Shown here piece by piece: positions 1,992 to 25,085 of a DNA stretch of 25,085 nucleotides. Made by a program: the position numbers and the translations under genes. Below the pieces are notes generated by a model. That model made no database searches. It saw nothing but the letters and a program-made list of their open reading frames with translations, and was not told the DNA's origin. Positions within the stretch are counted from its first letter, which is position 1. Each line of letters starts with the position of its first letter. Source of the stretch: a virus; IMG/VR virus record IMGVR_UViG_3300017753_000093, positions 1 to 25,085 of that record. One strand, given 5' to 3'.

Positions 1992-2945
1992 ATGGCTATT
2001 GTAACAAATACTTTCACGTCCTTTTCAGCTAAAGGTATACGTGAATCGTTGGCTGACATAATCAGCTCAATTTCGCCCGAAGAGGTGCCTTTTCAAAGTA
2101 ATGTTGGATCTGAAAACGTGTCTAACACTTATTTTGAGTGGCAGACTGACGCTTTGGCGGCAACAAGCAAAACCGCACAAATCGATGGTGACGACGTAGG
2201 GTCTTTTGATGCTACGGCAGCAACCACTAGGGTTGGTAACTATACGCACATTTTGCGTCGTACAACTATTGTCGCTGACAACCTAGCAGCGCAAGATTTA
2301 GCCGGCAGAAATGATGAGTTAAGTTATCAGTTGGCTAAGCGCGGCAAGGAATTACGCCGTGATGTCGAGGCAGTTTTAACCGACAATAACGCTCAAGTGG
2401 CCGGTAACGCTTCCACAGCTCGTGAGACCGCAGGTCTTGGCGCTTGGATTGCTACCAACGACAACTTTGGGTCAGGTGGTGCATCACCAACTGGTGACGG
2501 TAGTGACGCTCGTACAGACGGTACGCAAGCTGCATTTACCGAGGCAAAGCTTAAAACTGCAATGCAGGCTGCGTTTACAGCCGGCGGTCAGCCAAGCATC
2601 TTGATGGTTGGGCCACATAACAAGACAGTCGTATCAGGCTTTGCCGGTATTGCTGCTCAGCGTTATCAAGCTCCAAGCGACAGCCCGACAACAATCGTTG
2701 GAACGGCAGACGTGTATATGTCAGATTTTGGAACCTTAAACGTGGTTTGTAACAGGTTCCAAAGAGACCGCGATGCGTTCATGCTAGACCCAGAGTATGC
2801 ATCAGTATGTTACTTACGTCCGATCCAACAGGTAGAACTTGCCAAAACCGGTGACGCAGAAAAAAGAATGATTCTCTGCGAATTTGGTTTAAAAGTTCTC
2901 AATGAGGCAGCTCATGCAGGATCTTTTGACCTAGCAACATCATAA
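1992..2945 (+). CDS. Major capsid protein (DUF5309 / SU10-like type)
   Basis: A 317-aa protein with a strong ribosome-binding site (TAGGAG, 7-8 bases upstream). The N-terminus (FTSFSAKGIRESLADIISSI) with the following VPFQSNVG and FEWQTDAL motifs, a central VGNYTHILRRT strand, and the C-terminal RPIQQVELAKTGDAEKR matches my memory of the DUF5309 capsid family found in SU10-like and many marine podoviruses, which have the HK97 fold. It builds the icosahedral shell. It follows the scaffold gene by 10 bp and is followed by a strong hairpin at 2953-2972, consistent with a highly expressed transcript. Confidence 0.88.
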   Translation: MAIVTNTFTSFSAKGIRESLADIISSISPEEVPFQSNVGSENVSNTYFEWQTDALAATSKTAQIDGDDVGSFDATAATTRVGNYTHILRRTTIVADNLAAQDLAGRNDELSYQLAKRGKELRRDVEAVLTDNNAQVAGNASTARETAGLGAWIATNDNFGSGGASPTGDGSDARTDGTQAAFTEAKLKTAMQAAFTAGGQPSILMVGPHNKTVVSGFAGIAAQRYQAPSDSPTTIVGTADVYMSDFGTLNVVCNRFQRDRDAFMLDPEYASVCYLRPIQQVELAKTGDAEKRMILCEFGLKVLNEAAHAGSFDLATS

Positions 2946-2952
2946 TACATTT

Positions 2953-2972
2953 GGGGCGACATTAGTCGCCCC
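2953..2972 (+). terminator. Strong hairpin directly after the capsid gene
   Basis: GGGGCGAC, loop ATTA, GTCGCCCC: a perfect 8-bp GC-rich stem that gains a further T-A pair at 2952/2973. It starts 7 bases after the capsid stop codon. The sequence after it (ATTTACTTGG) has only a weak T run, so termination would be partial at best. It may instead set transcript level or mRNA 3' stability for the capsid gene. Confidence 0.6.
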
Positions 2973-2990
2973 ATTTACTTGGAGTTAAAA

Positions 2991-3290
2991 ATGAAGCGTA
3001 TATTTAGCCAAGACCCTGCAACTGGAATAACCAAATATTGGCACGTAACTGATAAGGGCGAGTATGTCGTTGAGACAAAACAAGACGTCTCCGCAATCGC
3101 CGAAAGAAATAAAAACGAGTACAAAGAGACACCGAATAGATACAAAGACGTTAATAAAGTAGCGTCATTGCCTCTTACAGTGTACTATGAGCTCAAGCGT
3201 CAGGGGATTGCAGATGATCCGAAGGCGATGCGTAAGTGGCTAAACGATAGTGAGCAACAAGTATTTAGGACAAGGGCAGGCACATTATGA
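2991..3290 (+). CDS. Conserved-type small head protein, function unknown
   Basis: A 99-aa protein. The frame also opens at a TTG at 2979, but that TTGGAG contains the GGAG ribosome-binding site for the ATG at 2991, so I take 2991 as the start. The N-terminus (MKRIFSQDPATGITKYWHV) and the later LPLTVYYELKRQGIADDPKAMRKWLND segment are of a kind I associate with a short gene between capsid and adaptor in related phages. Its last codons overlap the next ATG by 4 bp. It may be a head-completion or other minor virion protein, but nothing in the sequence proves this. Confidence 0.7.
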   Translation: MKRIFSQDPATGITKYWHVTDKGEYVVETKQDVSAIAERNKNEYKETPNRYKDVNKVASLPLTVYYELKRQGIADDPKAMRKWLNDSEQQVFRTRAGTL

Positions 3291-19804: not shown

Positions 19805-20071
19805 TTAACTCTTCTTAGCCTTCTTCTTTGGCGCCTTGCCGCCTTCCCAAGCTTCGTTTTCCGGTGTCGCAGGATCGTCTGCTTTTAGCGTGCCGTTACT
19901 ATTACGAGCTCGCTTTGGCGTTGATGATTCGGTTAGTGCGGTTATCTCTGCATCTTGGCGTTTAATAATTGCCGCAGCATCCTCACAAGCCTGCATCATG
20001 GCTCTTGGGTTCGAGATCCTATGCGGAAGCTCCAACAGCATAATTAAACTTTGTTCTTTTTCACTTAACAT
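19805..20071 (-). CDS. Small leftward hypothetical protein with Lys-rich tail
   Basis: An 88-aa protein. The frame extends to a TTG at 20083, but TTGGAG there supplies the GGAG for the ATG at 20071 (six bases between), so I take MLSEKEQSL as the start. The first half is helical (EKEQSLIMLLELPHRI, AAAIIKRQDAEITAL). The second is polar and ends in a lysine-rich tail (GGKAPKKKAKKS), which could bind nucleic acid. It stands alone between the rightward structural genes and the rightward early run, and rightward read-through of the structural block would be antisense to it. A GTTAAC/GTAAAC pair lies just upstream. Function unknown. Confidence 0.6.
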   Translation of the reverse strand: MLSEKEQSLIMLLELPHRISNPRAMMQACEDAAAIIKRQDAEITALTESSTPKRARNSNGTLKADDPATPENEAWEGGKAPKKKAKKS

Positions 20072-20086
20072 TTTATTCTCCAAGTC

Positions 20087-20103
20087 GTTAACATAATGTA
20101 AAC
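20087..20103. promoter_or_regulatory. GTTAAC-type box pair, upstream of the leftward gene
   Basis: GTTAAC (20087-20092) and GTAAAC (20098-20103, one mismatch) begin 11 bp apart, the same spacing as three other intergenic pairs in the window. They lie 16-32 bases before the ATG of the 88-aa leftward gene, a usual place for an operator. I see no clear -35/-10 pair for that gene. Confidence 0.5.
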
Positions 20104-20239: not shown

Positions 20240-20268
20240 TTGTGTTAACCCTCAGTTAACGTGATAAT
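20240..20268 (+). promoter_or_regulatory. Candidate promoter with GTTAAC box pair, before the ParB-like gene
   Basis: A -10 GATAAT (20263-20268) lies 17 bases after TTGTGT (20240-20245), a weak -35. Two GTTAAC boxes (20244-20249, 20255-20260), 11 bp apart, sit between and over these elements, so a bound repressor would block the polymerase. The ATG is at 20297, with AAGAGG as ribosome-binding site. Confidence 0.5.
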
Positions 20269-20296: not shown

Positions 20297-21160
20297 ATGT
20301 TTAATAGTAATGAAGTTCAACCACACATATTAAAGTCTGATGAGATCGAAAGTAAGATCTTGTCTATTACGCCAAGTTTGGCGGCGAAGTGGCTGCATAA
20401 TAATAATTACGGCAATAGGGCGATCAGTCCTTCGGTTGTAAAAAATTACGCACACCAAATGAAGCTAGGTAGATGGATGTTAAGTCCTCAACCTATTATA
20501 TTTTCTAGACATAAAGGCAGGTTACTTGATGGACAGCATCGATTATCCGCTATTGTAGAAAGTAAGAAAACAATAAAAGCACACTGCTCTGTTGTTAAAA
20601 ATGACTCTATATTTAAAGTTTTAGATCAAGGTAAAAATAGATCTAATGCTGATATTTTGCACTTACCGACTTCAATTGTAAGTCCGATGCAGTTTTTGCT
20701 ACGTATTGATACGCATAGAAATTATAAGGTAGTTTCAACTGATATAGAGCCTTACTTAAATTCAACCTTACATCATCGTTTAGAGCACATTAATGAAGTG
20801 GTGCAGCCAAGAGATAAGCGTTTTAAAAACAACCCATTTAGAGCGGCATTTGCCGTTGCAACCTGCACTGGTGGAAATTATGAAAAATGCTCCGAAGCAT
20901 ATCGCGCATTATCTCATTTAGATTTTCAAAGCTGTAGCGAAATGATGAAATCATTATACTATCAATTTGATAAAGGGTGGGAGCAAAGTCGAGTTGGTGG
21001 AAGTAACCGAAATAATGAATATTTTGTTAGAGGTTTGTATATGTTTTACAATTTAGAAAGTAATAAAACTACAATCACAATAACTGAGCAATTTAAATAT
21101 GAGGTAAGAAATAAAGTTAGAATGGTTATGGATACGTGGAGGTCTCACAAAGATGGCTGA
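20297..21160 (+). CDS. ParB/Srx-like domain protein
   Basis: A 287-aa protein. Residues about 25-100 match the ParB/sulfiredoxin-like domain of phage and plasmid proteins: ITPSLAAKWL, NRAISPSVVKNYAHQMKLGRW, QPIIFS, and the key box LLDGQHRLSAIVES (76-89; GQHR is the ParB-type signature), then DQGKNRSNAD (110-119). The remaining 170 residues are helical, without a recognised domain. Relatives bind DNA, hydrolyse CTP or cut DNA, and which applies here cannot be told. No ParA-type gene is present, so classical plasmid partition is unlikely. It leads a four-gene rightward run and has a candidate GTTAAC-controlled promoter upstream. Confidence 0.72.
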   Translation: MFNSNEVQPHILKSDEIESKILSITPSLAAKWLHNNNYGNRAISPSVVKNYAHQMKLGRWMLSPQPIIFSRHKGRLLDGQHRLSAIVESKKTIKAHCSVVKNDSIFKVLDQGKNRSNADILHLPTSIVSPMQFLLRIDTHRNYKVVSTDIEPYLNSTLHHRLEHINEVVQPRDKRFKNNPFRAAFAVATCTGGNYEKCSEAYRALSHLDFQSCSEMMKSLYYQFDKGWEQSRVGGSNRNNEYFVRGLYMFYNLESNKTTITITEQFKYEVRNKVRMVMDTWRSHKDG

Positions 21161-24371: not shown

Positions 24372-24399
24372 ATAATAGGGCTTGTACATCTGTTAACAA
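24372..24399 (-). promoter_or_regulatory. Candidate leftward promoter for the lysis cassette
   Basis: On the minus strand, TTGTTA (24399-24394, four of six to the sigma70 -35) and TATTAT (24377-24372, five of six to the -10) are separated by 16 bases. The -35 overlaps the first GTTAAC box. It points to the eight-gene cassette beginning at 24332. Confidence 0.55.
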
Positions 24400-24408
24400 T
24401 TTGTTAAC
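24392..24408. promoter_or_regulatory. GTTAAC box pair in the divergent promoter region
   Basis: Two perfect GTTAAC boxes (24392-24397, 24403-24408) 11 bp apart, between the leftward lysis cassette and the rightward regulatory run. They overlap the -35 elements of both candidate promoters, so one bound protein could control both directions. Confidence 0.6.
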
Positions 24409-24440: not shown

Positions 24441-24770
24441 ATGTACTATACACTTTTAGAAACAATTAATGACCACATAGTAAAAGCAAAATTATGTTTA
24501 CAGCCAGATATAACTTTTGCCGCAAAAGCTCATAAAAAAGAAGCTATGCAACTTTTAAACGCAGCTTATGATAGATTAAAAACAGCTAACACTAGATATG
24601 CAATTCTATCTTTATCACGAGAAGATAATTTTTCTATACCACATGATCTTTTTCAAATTCGTGATAAGCATTTTAGGCTTTTTATGAAAGATTATCACGA
24701 AGACCTTAAAAGACTAGTGCAGTTACGATCAGATTTTAAAAATATAAAAGTAGTAAAGGTTGGGGCGTAA
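24441..24770 (+). CDS. Hypothetical helical protein, 109 aa
   Basis: It follows the divergent promoter, with a strong GGAGGT site before the ATG. It is almost entirely helical (YYTLLETINDHIVKAKLCLQ, KEAMQLLNAAYDRLK, FRLFMKDYHEDLKRLVQLR), with one Cys and a basic C-terminus. I see no helix-turn-helix or enzyme motif. It is the first gene of the right-end regulatory run, just ahead of the RHH gene, and may be an early protein acting on the host or on transcription. Family unknown. Confidence 0.65.
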   Translation: MYYTLLETINDHIVKAKLCLQPDITFAAKAHKKEAMQLLNAAYDRLKTANTRYAILSLSREDNFSIPHDLFQIRDKHFRLFMKDYHEDLKRLVQLRSDFKNIKVVKVGA

Positions 24771-24775
24771 GCCCC
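24762..24775 (+). terminator. Weak hairpin at the end of the 109-aa gene
   Basis: GGGGC, tetraloop GTAA (GNRA type), GCCCC: a 5-bp stem overlapping the TAA stop of the 109-aa gene. There is no proper T run after it, so termination is doubtful. It may only stabilise the message. Confidence 0.3.
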
Positions 24776-24803
24776 TCCCACATTCTTTGAGCCTTGCTTT
24801 CTT

Positions 24804-24842
24804 TTTAACAAGTAGTTAACAATAAGAAAAAACGGAGTTAAC
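24804..24842. promoter_or_regulatory. GTTAAC box cluster before the RHH gene
   Basis: TTTAAC (24804-24809, one mismatch), GTTAAC (24815-24820) and GTTAAC (24837-24842) lie at 11 and 22 bp intervals, one and two helical turns. The last overlaps the region just after the CGGAG ribosome-binding site and ends 3 bases before the ATG at 24846. This suggests autoregulation. Confidence 0.55.
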
Positions 24843-24845
24843 ACA

Positions 24846-25010
24846 ATGGAACTAAAACAGATAGGCCCACGTATTCGTAAAGAAGTTTACGACAAATTTG
24901 CGAAGGACTGTGAGAACACACGATATAGTCAGTCTGTGATTATCGAGAAGCTTATTATTAACTACTTGAAGGACAAAGGCTATGAGTTCGCCAGTGACAT
25001 TAGGGATTGA
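24846..25010 (+). CDS. Ribbon-helix-helix (Arc/CopG-type) transcription regulator, 54 aa
   Basis: It has CGGAG before the ATG. The layout is that of a minimal RHH repressor: a basic strand (about 4-12, KQIGPRIRKE), helix A (13-24, VYDKFAKDCEN), a turn with a Ser cap (YSQS), then helix B (30-44, VIIEKLIINYLKDKG). RHH proteins form dimers that insert the paired strands into the major groove and bind tandem or inverted short sites about one turn apart. GTTAAC boxes with that phasing lie directly upstream and before three other transcription units, so it probably represses itself and them. That link is inferred. The gene overlaps the RuvC-like start by 29 bp. Confidence 0.72.
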   Translation: MELKQIGPRIRKEVYDKFAKDCENTRYSQSVIIEKLIINYLKDKGYEFASDIRD

Positions 25011-25085
25011 TTGCGGCTACCGCCACGGCGGTGTCGCTCTCATCTCGGATGATTGGTCAGAGGTTCACGACCTGCCAGTTTACAG
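24982..25085 (+). CDS. RuvC-like Holliday-junction resolvase, first 34 codons (cut by window edge)
   Basis: The frame starts at an ATG inside the end of the RHH gene, with AAAGG upstream, and runs off the right edge. The visible peptide reads MSSPVTLGIDCGYRHGGVAL, then ISDDWSEVHDLPVY. 'LGIDxGxxxGGVAL' with a following 'xxVxDLPxY' is the start of phage RuvC-type nucleases, where the Asp (D10) is the first metal ligand. The family uses Pro after that Asp most often, and here it is Cys. Such nucleases resolve DNA branches before packaging. The other catalytic acids are outside the window, so the call is tentative. Confidence 0.6.
   Translation, partial: MSSPVTLGIDCGYRHGGVALISDDWSEVHDLPVY

Follow-up and report, generated by a model that had tools for sequence, protein, structure and literature searches.

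A phage-encoded Arc-type ribbon-helix-helix protein as the probable reader of paired GTTAAC boxes in an uncultured phage family

Near the end of a 25,085-bp IMG/VR virus record, the whole of which is referred to as the window, a gene for a 54-aa protein closely follows a row of GTTAAC-like hexamers. The window is a fragment of a tailed phage whose major capsid protein is of the SU10 type. The question raised by this locus is whether the small protein reads the hexamers and, if so, whether it controls its own gene alone or other promoters as well. The reading favored here, with a probability of roughly 0.8 on the basis of sequence comparison, is that the protein is a phage regulator of the Arc-type ribbon-helix-helix (RHH) family, which would recognize pairs of GTTAAC boxes, repress its own gene, and regulate a small number of additional promoters. 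The locus comprises the following features:

24794–24796, + strand: TTG, inferred to be a -35-like element, 10 bp before box 1
24804–24809, unstranded: box 1 of the own operator, TTTAAC, found in the sequence; relatives in clades A and B have it at the same position with one mismatch as well
24815–24820, unstranded: box 2 of the own operator, GTTAAC, found in the sequence 11 bp past box 1; conserved in relatives
24837–24842, unstranded: box 3 of the own operator, GTTAAC, found in the sequence 22 bp past box 2; conserved in clades A and B
24846–25010, + strand: RHH protein of 54 aa, candidate box reader, with ribbon residues 2–10 and helices 12–25 and 29–43 (open reading frame, phrog_3180 at E = 2e-6, AlphaFold2 model, Arc fold match)
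24982–25085, + strand: 5′ portion of a gene for a RuvC-like Holliday junction resolvase, cut off by the record end (phrog_1770 at E = 0.0027 for the fragment)

The three boxes upstream of the RHH open reading frame lie at 0, +11, and +33 bp, which gives spacings of 11 and then 22 bp, and the ATG at 24846 stands 3 bases past the end of the third box. The initial annotation had described three phased boxes 3 bases before the gene, and its coordinates, the phasing, and the gap to the ATG are all confirmed. The slot between boxes 2 and 3 (24826–24831) reads GAAAAA, so that the own operator consists of three boxes in an 11-bp register of which one slot is degenerate. The third box shares its first base with the Shine-Dalgarno sequence GGAG (24834–24837), of which it is the last G, and a third in-phase box over the Shine-Dalgarno sequence is found in clades A and B. 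Further upstream, a hairpin, GGGGCGTAAGCCCC, occupies 24761–24778 between a 109-aa open reading frame and the RHH promoter and may be a terminator of the upstream transcript; some relatives carry GGGGGCAACAGCCCCC at this position. A terminator scan performed at chance level.

The protein encoded at 24846–25010 on the + strand has the sequence MELKQIGPRIRKEVYDKFAKDCENTRYSQSVIIEKLIINYLKDKGYEFASDIRD. The window protein matches phrog_3180, annotated in PHROGs as “Arc-like repressor”, and the same profile is matched by 25 of 32 family members; Pfam RHH_3 is matched by 18 of the 32, the window protein alone being under threshold in a Pfam RHH search. When the RHH alignment was compared with PDB profiles, the matches were AvtR, which was the best sequence-profile match, CopG (PDB 1b01/2cpg), and Arc. 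The AlphaFold2 model has a mean pLDDT of 89 and displays an extended N-terminus followed by the two helices, a single chain being unable to show the two-stranded ribbon. Its best fold match is Arc, with a TM of about 0.65; Arc and CopG fall in the TM range 0.6–0.7 with weak E-values of about 0.6–1, which is expected for a chain of this length. The Arc/CopG-type fold attributed to the protein in the initial annotation agrees with the profile matches and with the two-helix model.

The profile alignment pairs window residue i with Arc residue i+4, so that Q5, G7, and R9 fall on Q9, N11, and R13 of Arc. These three Arc residues contact bases in the structure of the Arc-operator complex. Across 20 de-replicated, divergent RHH proteins, conservation is highest in the columns of Q5 (20/20), G7 (19/20), and R9 (19/20), the exceptions being a leucine in place of G7 in the protein of the LLVR clade and a histidine in place of R9 in the GAHI protein. 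The family combines, besides its profile matches, the conserved, alternating, DNA-facing ribbon residues of RHH proteins with short repeats separated by roughly one turn of the helix, here at an 11-bp spacing with an N5 linker.

This phage family is present in more than 400 viral stretches. In the first 20 loci with RHH relatives, ranging from 100% down to 35% identity, GTTAAC boxes are found directly upstream of the gene in every case; in the most distant clade among these, the N-terminal nine residues (MELKQIGPR) are fully retained, although identity over the whole protein is only 33–35%. A larger set of 281 loci was anchored on the neighboring RuvC gene, many of them being overlapping fetches of the same contigs, and an RHH gene lies near RuvC in 275 of them. 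Five of the six remaining loci appear to be cut near a contig end, and the sixth, L125, carries a different small open reading frame and no GTTAAC. In that locus, at 2700–3001, a close RuvC relative follows the different frame (MKKESRVILTEEQHQVL...), and AGGAT/ATCCTAT repeats stand in place of GTTAAC; here one regulator may have been exchanged for another that brought its operator along.

After the RHH loci were collapsed to 25 upstream-sequence clusters, exact GTTAAC was found upstream in 21 of the 22 clusters whose ribbon is of the Q-x-G-x-R type, and the 3 clusters whose ribbon differs all lack it. The lone Q-x-G-x-R exception, L292, has GTTAGT and GCTAAC 11 bp apart. Boxes directly ahead of the RHH gene are accordingly seen in 21 of the 25 clusters. 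In the offset profile around the exact box, a sharp peak is at +11, where 71% of positions agree in at least 4 of 6 letters (neighboring offsets 0–4%), and minor peaks occur at -11 (37%) and at +/-22 (about 20%).

The boxes are not confined to this locus. Single GTTAAC hexamers have an unremarkable density in the window (11 seen, 6.9 expected), whereas pairs spaced by 11 bp with at most one mismatch number 4, as compared to a mean of 0.055 and a maximum of 1 in 400 dinucleotide shuffles. All four are intergenic and lie 15–36 bp ahead of an open reading frame with a Shine-Dalgarno sequence. Besides the own operator, they and the genes that follow them are:

24392–24408, unstranded: GTTAAC-N5-GTTAAC, a perfect pair located 32 bp ahead of the 109-aa open reading frame
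24441–24770, + strand: 109-aa open reading frame, candidate regulon gene (phrog_8776, unknown function, E = 3e-4)
20244–20260, unstranded: perfect pair GTTAAC-N5-GTTAAC, 36 bp before a 287-aa open reading frame
20297–21160, + strand: 287-aa open reading frame, candidate regulon gene (phrog_5931, unknown)
20087–20103, unstranded: pair GTTAAC-N5-GTAAAC with one mismatch, 15 bp before a leftward 92-aa open reading frame
19805–20083, - strand: 92-aa open reading frame, candidate regulon gene, with its predicted start inside 20083

The pair ahead of the 287-aa frame is kept in four related contigs. The 287-aa protein itself, which has a faint ParB-like match, was considered as a box reader and set aside, as its close relatives were found in four contigs only. 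A Pfam match of this protein to an aerolysin/pertussis toxin domain, with E = 7e-4, does not reach the curated cut-off and is probably spurious. The compact self-regulated circuit that had been proposed earlier is thus retained in so far as boxes occupy the gene's own promoter; since other promoters bear them too, a small regulon is indicated and not a self-loop alone.

Every perfect GTTAAC-N5-GTTAAC pair contains TTAA-N7-TTAA, and this brings in a serious rival which the earlier account had omitted, namely, that the boxes are bound by CtrA, the cell-cycle regulator of the host, as happens in some phages of Alphaproteobacteria, and that the RHH gene is simply one of the genes under CtrA control. 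TTAA-N7-TTAA occurs in several Alphaproteobacteria phage promoters and has been shown to bind CtrA (PMC9437464), and the CtrA motif of Dinoroseobacter has been written TTAAC-N5-GTTAAC (PMC7232146). The intergenic, promoter-proximal position of the pairs fits CtrA as well, and the window is accounted for equally by both readings. The relatives, on the other hand, are explained less well by CtrA. Many RHH promoters have one perfect GTTAAC together with a GTGAAA, GTTATA, or GTTAGA half-site, which breaks TTAA-N7-TTAA; the motif is present in the window and in clades A–C and is broken at the RHH promoters of clades D and E, so that it does not hold family-wide. Moreover, the outer G and C of the hexamer are conserved though CtrA does not need them. 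CtrA as sole reader is consequently considered improbable, whereas the RHH reading put forward in the initial annotation gains support.

The association between ribbon and box bears on the identity of the reader. GTTAAC-N5-GTTAAC pairs are present in all 20 contigs whose RHH protein has a Q-x-G-x-R ribbon, and in these records (581 kb) there are 54 pairs at gap 5 as compared to a mean of 1.4 at other gaps. No gap-5 GTTAAC pair occurs in the four LLVR/GAHI records (81 kb), whose ribbons are Q-x-L-x-R (LLVR clade) and Q-x-G-x-H (GAHI, one contig). When the 64 possible palindromic hexamers were compared for gap-5 pairs within each clade set, the largest excess belonged to GTTAAC in each of five clade sets and to GATATC in the LLVR set, where ribbon residues 7-8 have changed from G-P or G-S to L-V. 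The LLVR records contain 6 GATATC pairs at gap 5 and 0 at other gaps; all six precede open reading frame starts and represent about three promoters in two related phages. One of them lies between the LLVR RHH gene and a divergent gene, where the boxes again stand at 11 and 22 bp. In the full table of hexamers by gaps for LLVR, GATATC at gap 5 ties with AGCGCT at gap 4, so that the evidence for replacement is good but not overwhelming. Apart from this, the LLVR clade (L315–L319, records G024–G026) has zero GTTAAC in about 58 kb, and its AGCGCT pairs, with a 10-bp period and located outside called open reading frames, are possibly another regulatory or terminator element. For the GAHI ribbon, no replacement box stood out in the hexamer screen, and the RHH gene of that contig is apparently internal to a transcription unit.

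That the RHH protein reads GTTAAC, as had been suggested earlier, is hence supported by comparison, ribbon residues and box sequence changing together; the changes are few (one LLVR lineage and one GAHI contig), and the covariation therefore amounts to one or two evolutionary events. The same records weigh against CtrA, whose motif is nearly absent from them (one site, GTTAAG/GTTAAT) despite a RuvC about 80% identical, with GATATC pairs in its place in the LLVR records. A role for CtrA beside the RHH protein is possible. The specific version in which both read GTTAAC pairs, the phage RHH protein having converged on CtrA-consensus sites so as to compete with CtrA at phage and possibly host promoters, is thought unlikely.

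Across 17 records, 44 of 46 pairs lie 10–52 bp ahead of a predicted open reading frame start with a Shine-Dalgarno sequence, and 17 of 35 non-redundant box pairs have a TTG at an offset of exactly 10 bp ahead of box 1. In promoters of the type found at 24392, box 1 and its next base form TTAACA, and a TATAA-like sequence follows 16-17 bp on. This arrangement would resemble a promoter, a reading that stays putative because a plain sigma-70 consensus scan at the boxes performed at chance level and gave no convincing promoter. The longer pattern TTG-N7-GTTAAC-N5-GTTAAC, often followed by TATAA, might also mean that the pairs are promoter elements for RNA polymerase or for a phage-specific sigma factor or polymerase and are not read by the RHH protein. 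This is considered very improbable, given that two palindromes 11 bp apart have the shape of a dimer-dimer operator and that the hexamer becomes GATATC together with the ribbon change.

A blind scan of IMG/VR for TTG-N7-GTTAAC-N5-GTTAAC returned at least 80 loci; 42 of the 80 listed belong to the RHH phage family by protein similarity and 38 fall outside it, so that the pattern also occurs elsewhere. The triple-box pattern gave 18 matches across all viral contigs, mostly repeat arrays, and no RHH protein of this phage family was recognized near them. These contigs (L025–L042), with three or more GTTAAC at 11-bp spacing, perhaps contain iterons or sites of other regulators.

As regards mechanism, an RHH dimer would insert its two-stranded ribbon, with Q5, G7, and R9 from each chain, into the major groove at a single GTTAAC palindrome. 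A pair of hexamers spaced by 11 bp, with a 5-bp linker, would hold two neighboring dimers on the same helix face, as in Arc. Because the own boxes lie between the -35-like TTG and the Shine-Dalgarno sequence, binding of the RHH protein should block RNA polymerase. Alternatively, the protein may read the boxes and activate, aiding RNA polymerase at promoters with a poor -10 element. The lack of a convincing sigma-70 promoter at the boxes makes activation possible, and the RHH protein AmrZ is both an activator and a repressor (PMC3325190). However, the boxes do not lie upstream of the -35 element but overlap the Shine-Dalgarno sequence and the presumed core promoter, and small RHH proteins of this type from phages and viruses are repressors of the genes that encode them (SvtR, PMC5569661). 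Activation is therefore regarded as rather doubtful, and repression by the RHH protein is preferred.

Repression would limit the expression of an operon devoted to replication and recombination. The RuvC-like frame starts at 24982 and shares 29 bp with the RHH frame, in another frame; it is truncated by the record end in the window and complete in relatives, a full-length relative matching phrog_1770 at E = 1.7e-24. The overlap between the two genes, already pointed out in the initial annotation, is conserved, and in a 36-kb relative the gene order after the RHH gene is RuvC, exonuclease VIII-like, HNH, and primase/helicase. In clade E (L118–L150), an additional small gene (MSAVASNTMSEANALMRD...) separates the RHH gene from RuvC; the second box there reads GTTATAGT and, lying 16 bp after TTGCAC, could double as a -10 element. 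According to the proposed scheme, the RHH protein would accumulate after expression of the operon and then shut its own promoter as well as the other promoters that carry boxes, three more of which are in the window and may be under the same protein.

The regulator belongs with the known phage and viral RHH autoregulators Arc, SvtR, and AvtR. Arc of Salmonella phage P22 is likewise a phage RHH protein, of about 53 aa, and the N5 linker of the window boxes is shared with the half-sites of the Arc and CopG operators, which have 5-bp linkers (PMC3325190). Unlike the Arc operator, the hexamer here is a perfect palindrome; furthermore, Arc is encoded in the immunity region of a temperate phage, whereas the present gene heads a RuvC/exonuclease/primase operon, and a search of 15 related records, which may be incomplete, turned up no integrase. 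CopG (45 aa) is an RHH repressor of its own promoter but is a plasmid copy-number protein with another ribbon and operator sequence. SvtR (SIRV1) and AvtR (AFV6) are likewise virus-encoded but act in archaeal viruses, on archaeal promoters, through imperfect inverted repeats and not palindromic hexamer pairs at 11 bp. Phages of the phiCbK-like and vB_BsubS-Delta types also have TTAA-N7-TTAA promoters (PMC9437464), but there the host CtrA reads sites that cluster in gap or terminal regions, whereas in the present family the hexamer varies with the ribbon of the phage RHH protein, and the CtrA motif is disrupted at many sites.

Searches beyond the family returned little. With tblastn, the RHH protein and its clade D and E versions had no relative in named phages, and none was found in bacterial genome contigs searched with the RHH alignment. 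The RuvC relatives in named phages are below 40% identity and have mixed hosts, tRNAs as a host clue were absent, and nothing on GTTAAC in connection with RHH and phage was found in the literature collection searched.

The added interest of this regulator lies in a natural specificity series and a map of boxes. The rule by which a ribbon of three alternating residues selects a hexamer is known for few RHH proteins; here the gene and its place stay the same and the 11-bp geometry is constant, and the hexamer goes from GTTAAC to GATATC with a change at ribbon residues 7-8, so that the recognition rule can be tested directly with small proteins and short probes. A further caution is that a TTAA-N7-TTAA motif in a phage promoter is not necessarily a sign of CtrA. 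For this uncultured phage family, the result would be a map of a regulator and its operators.
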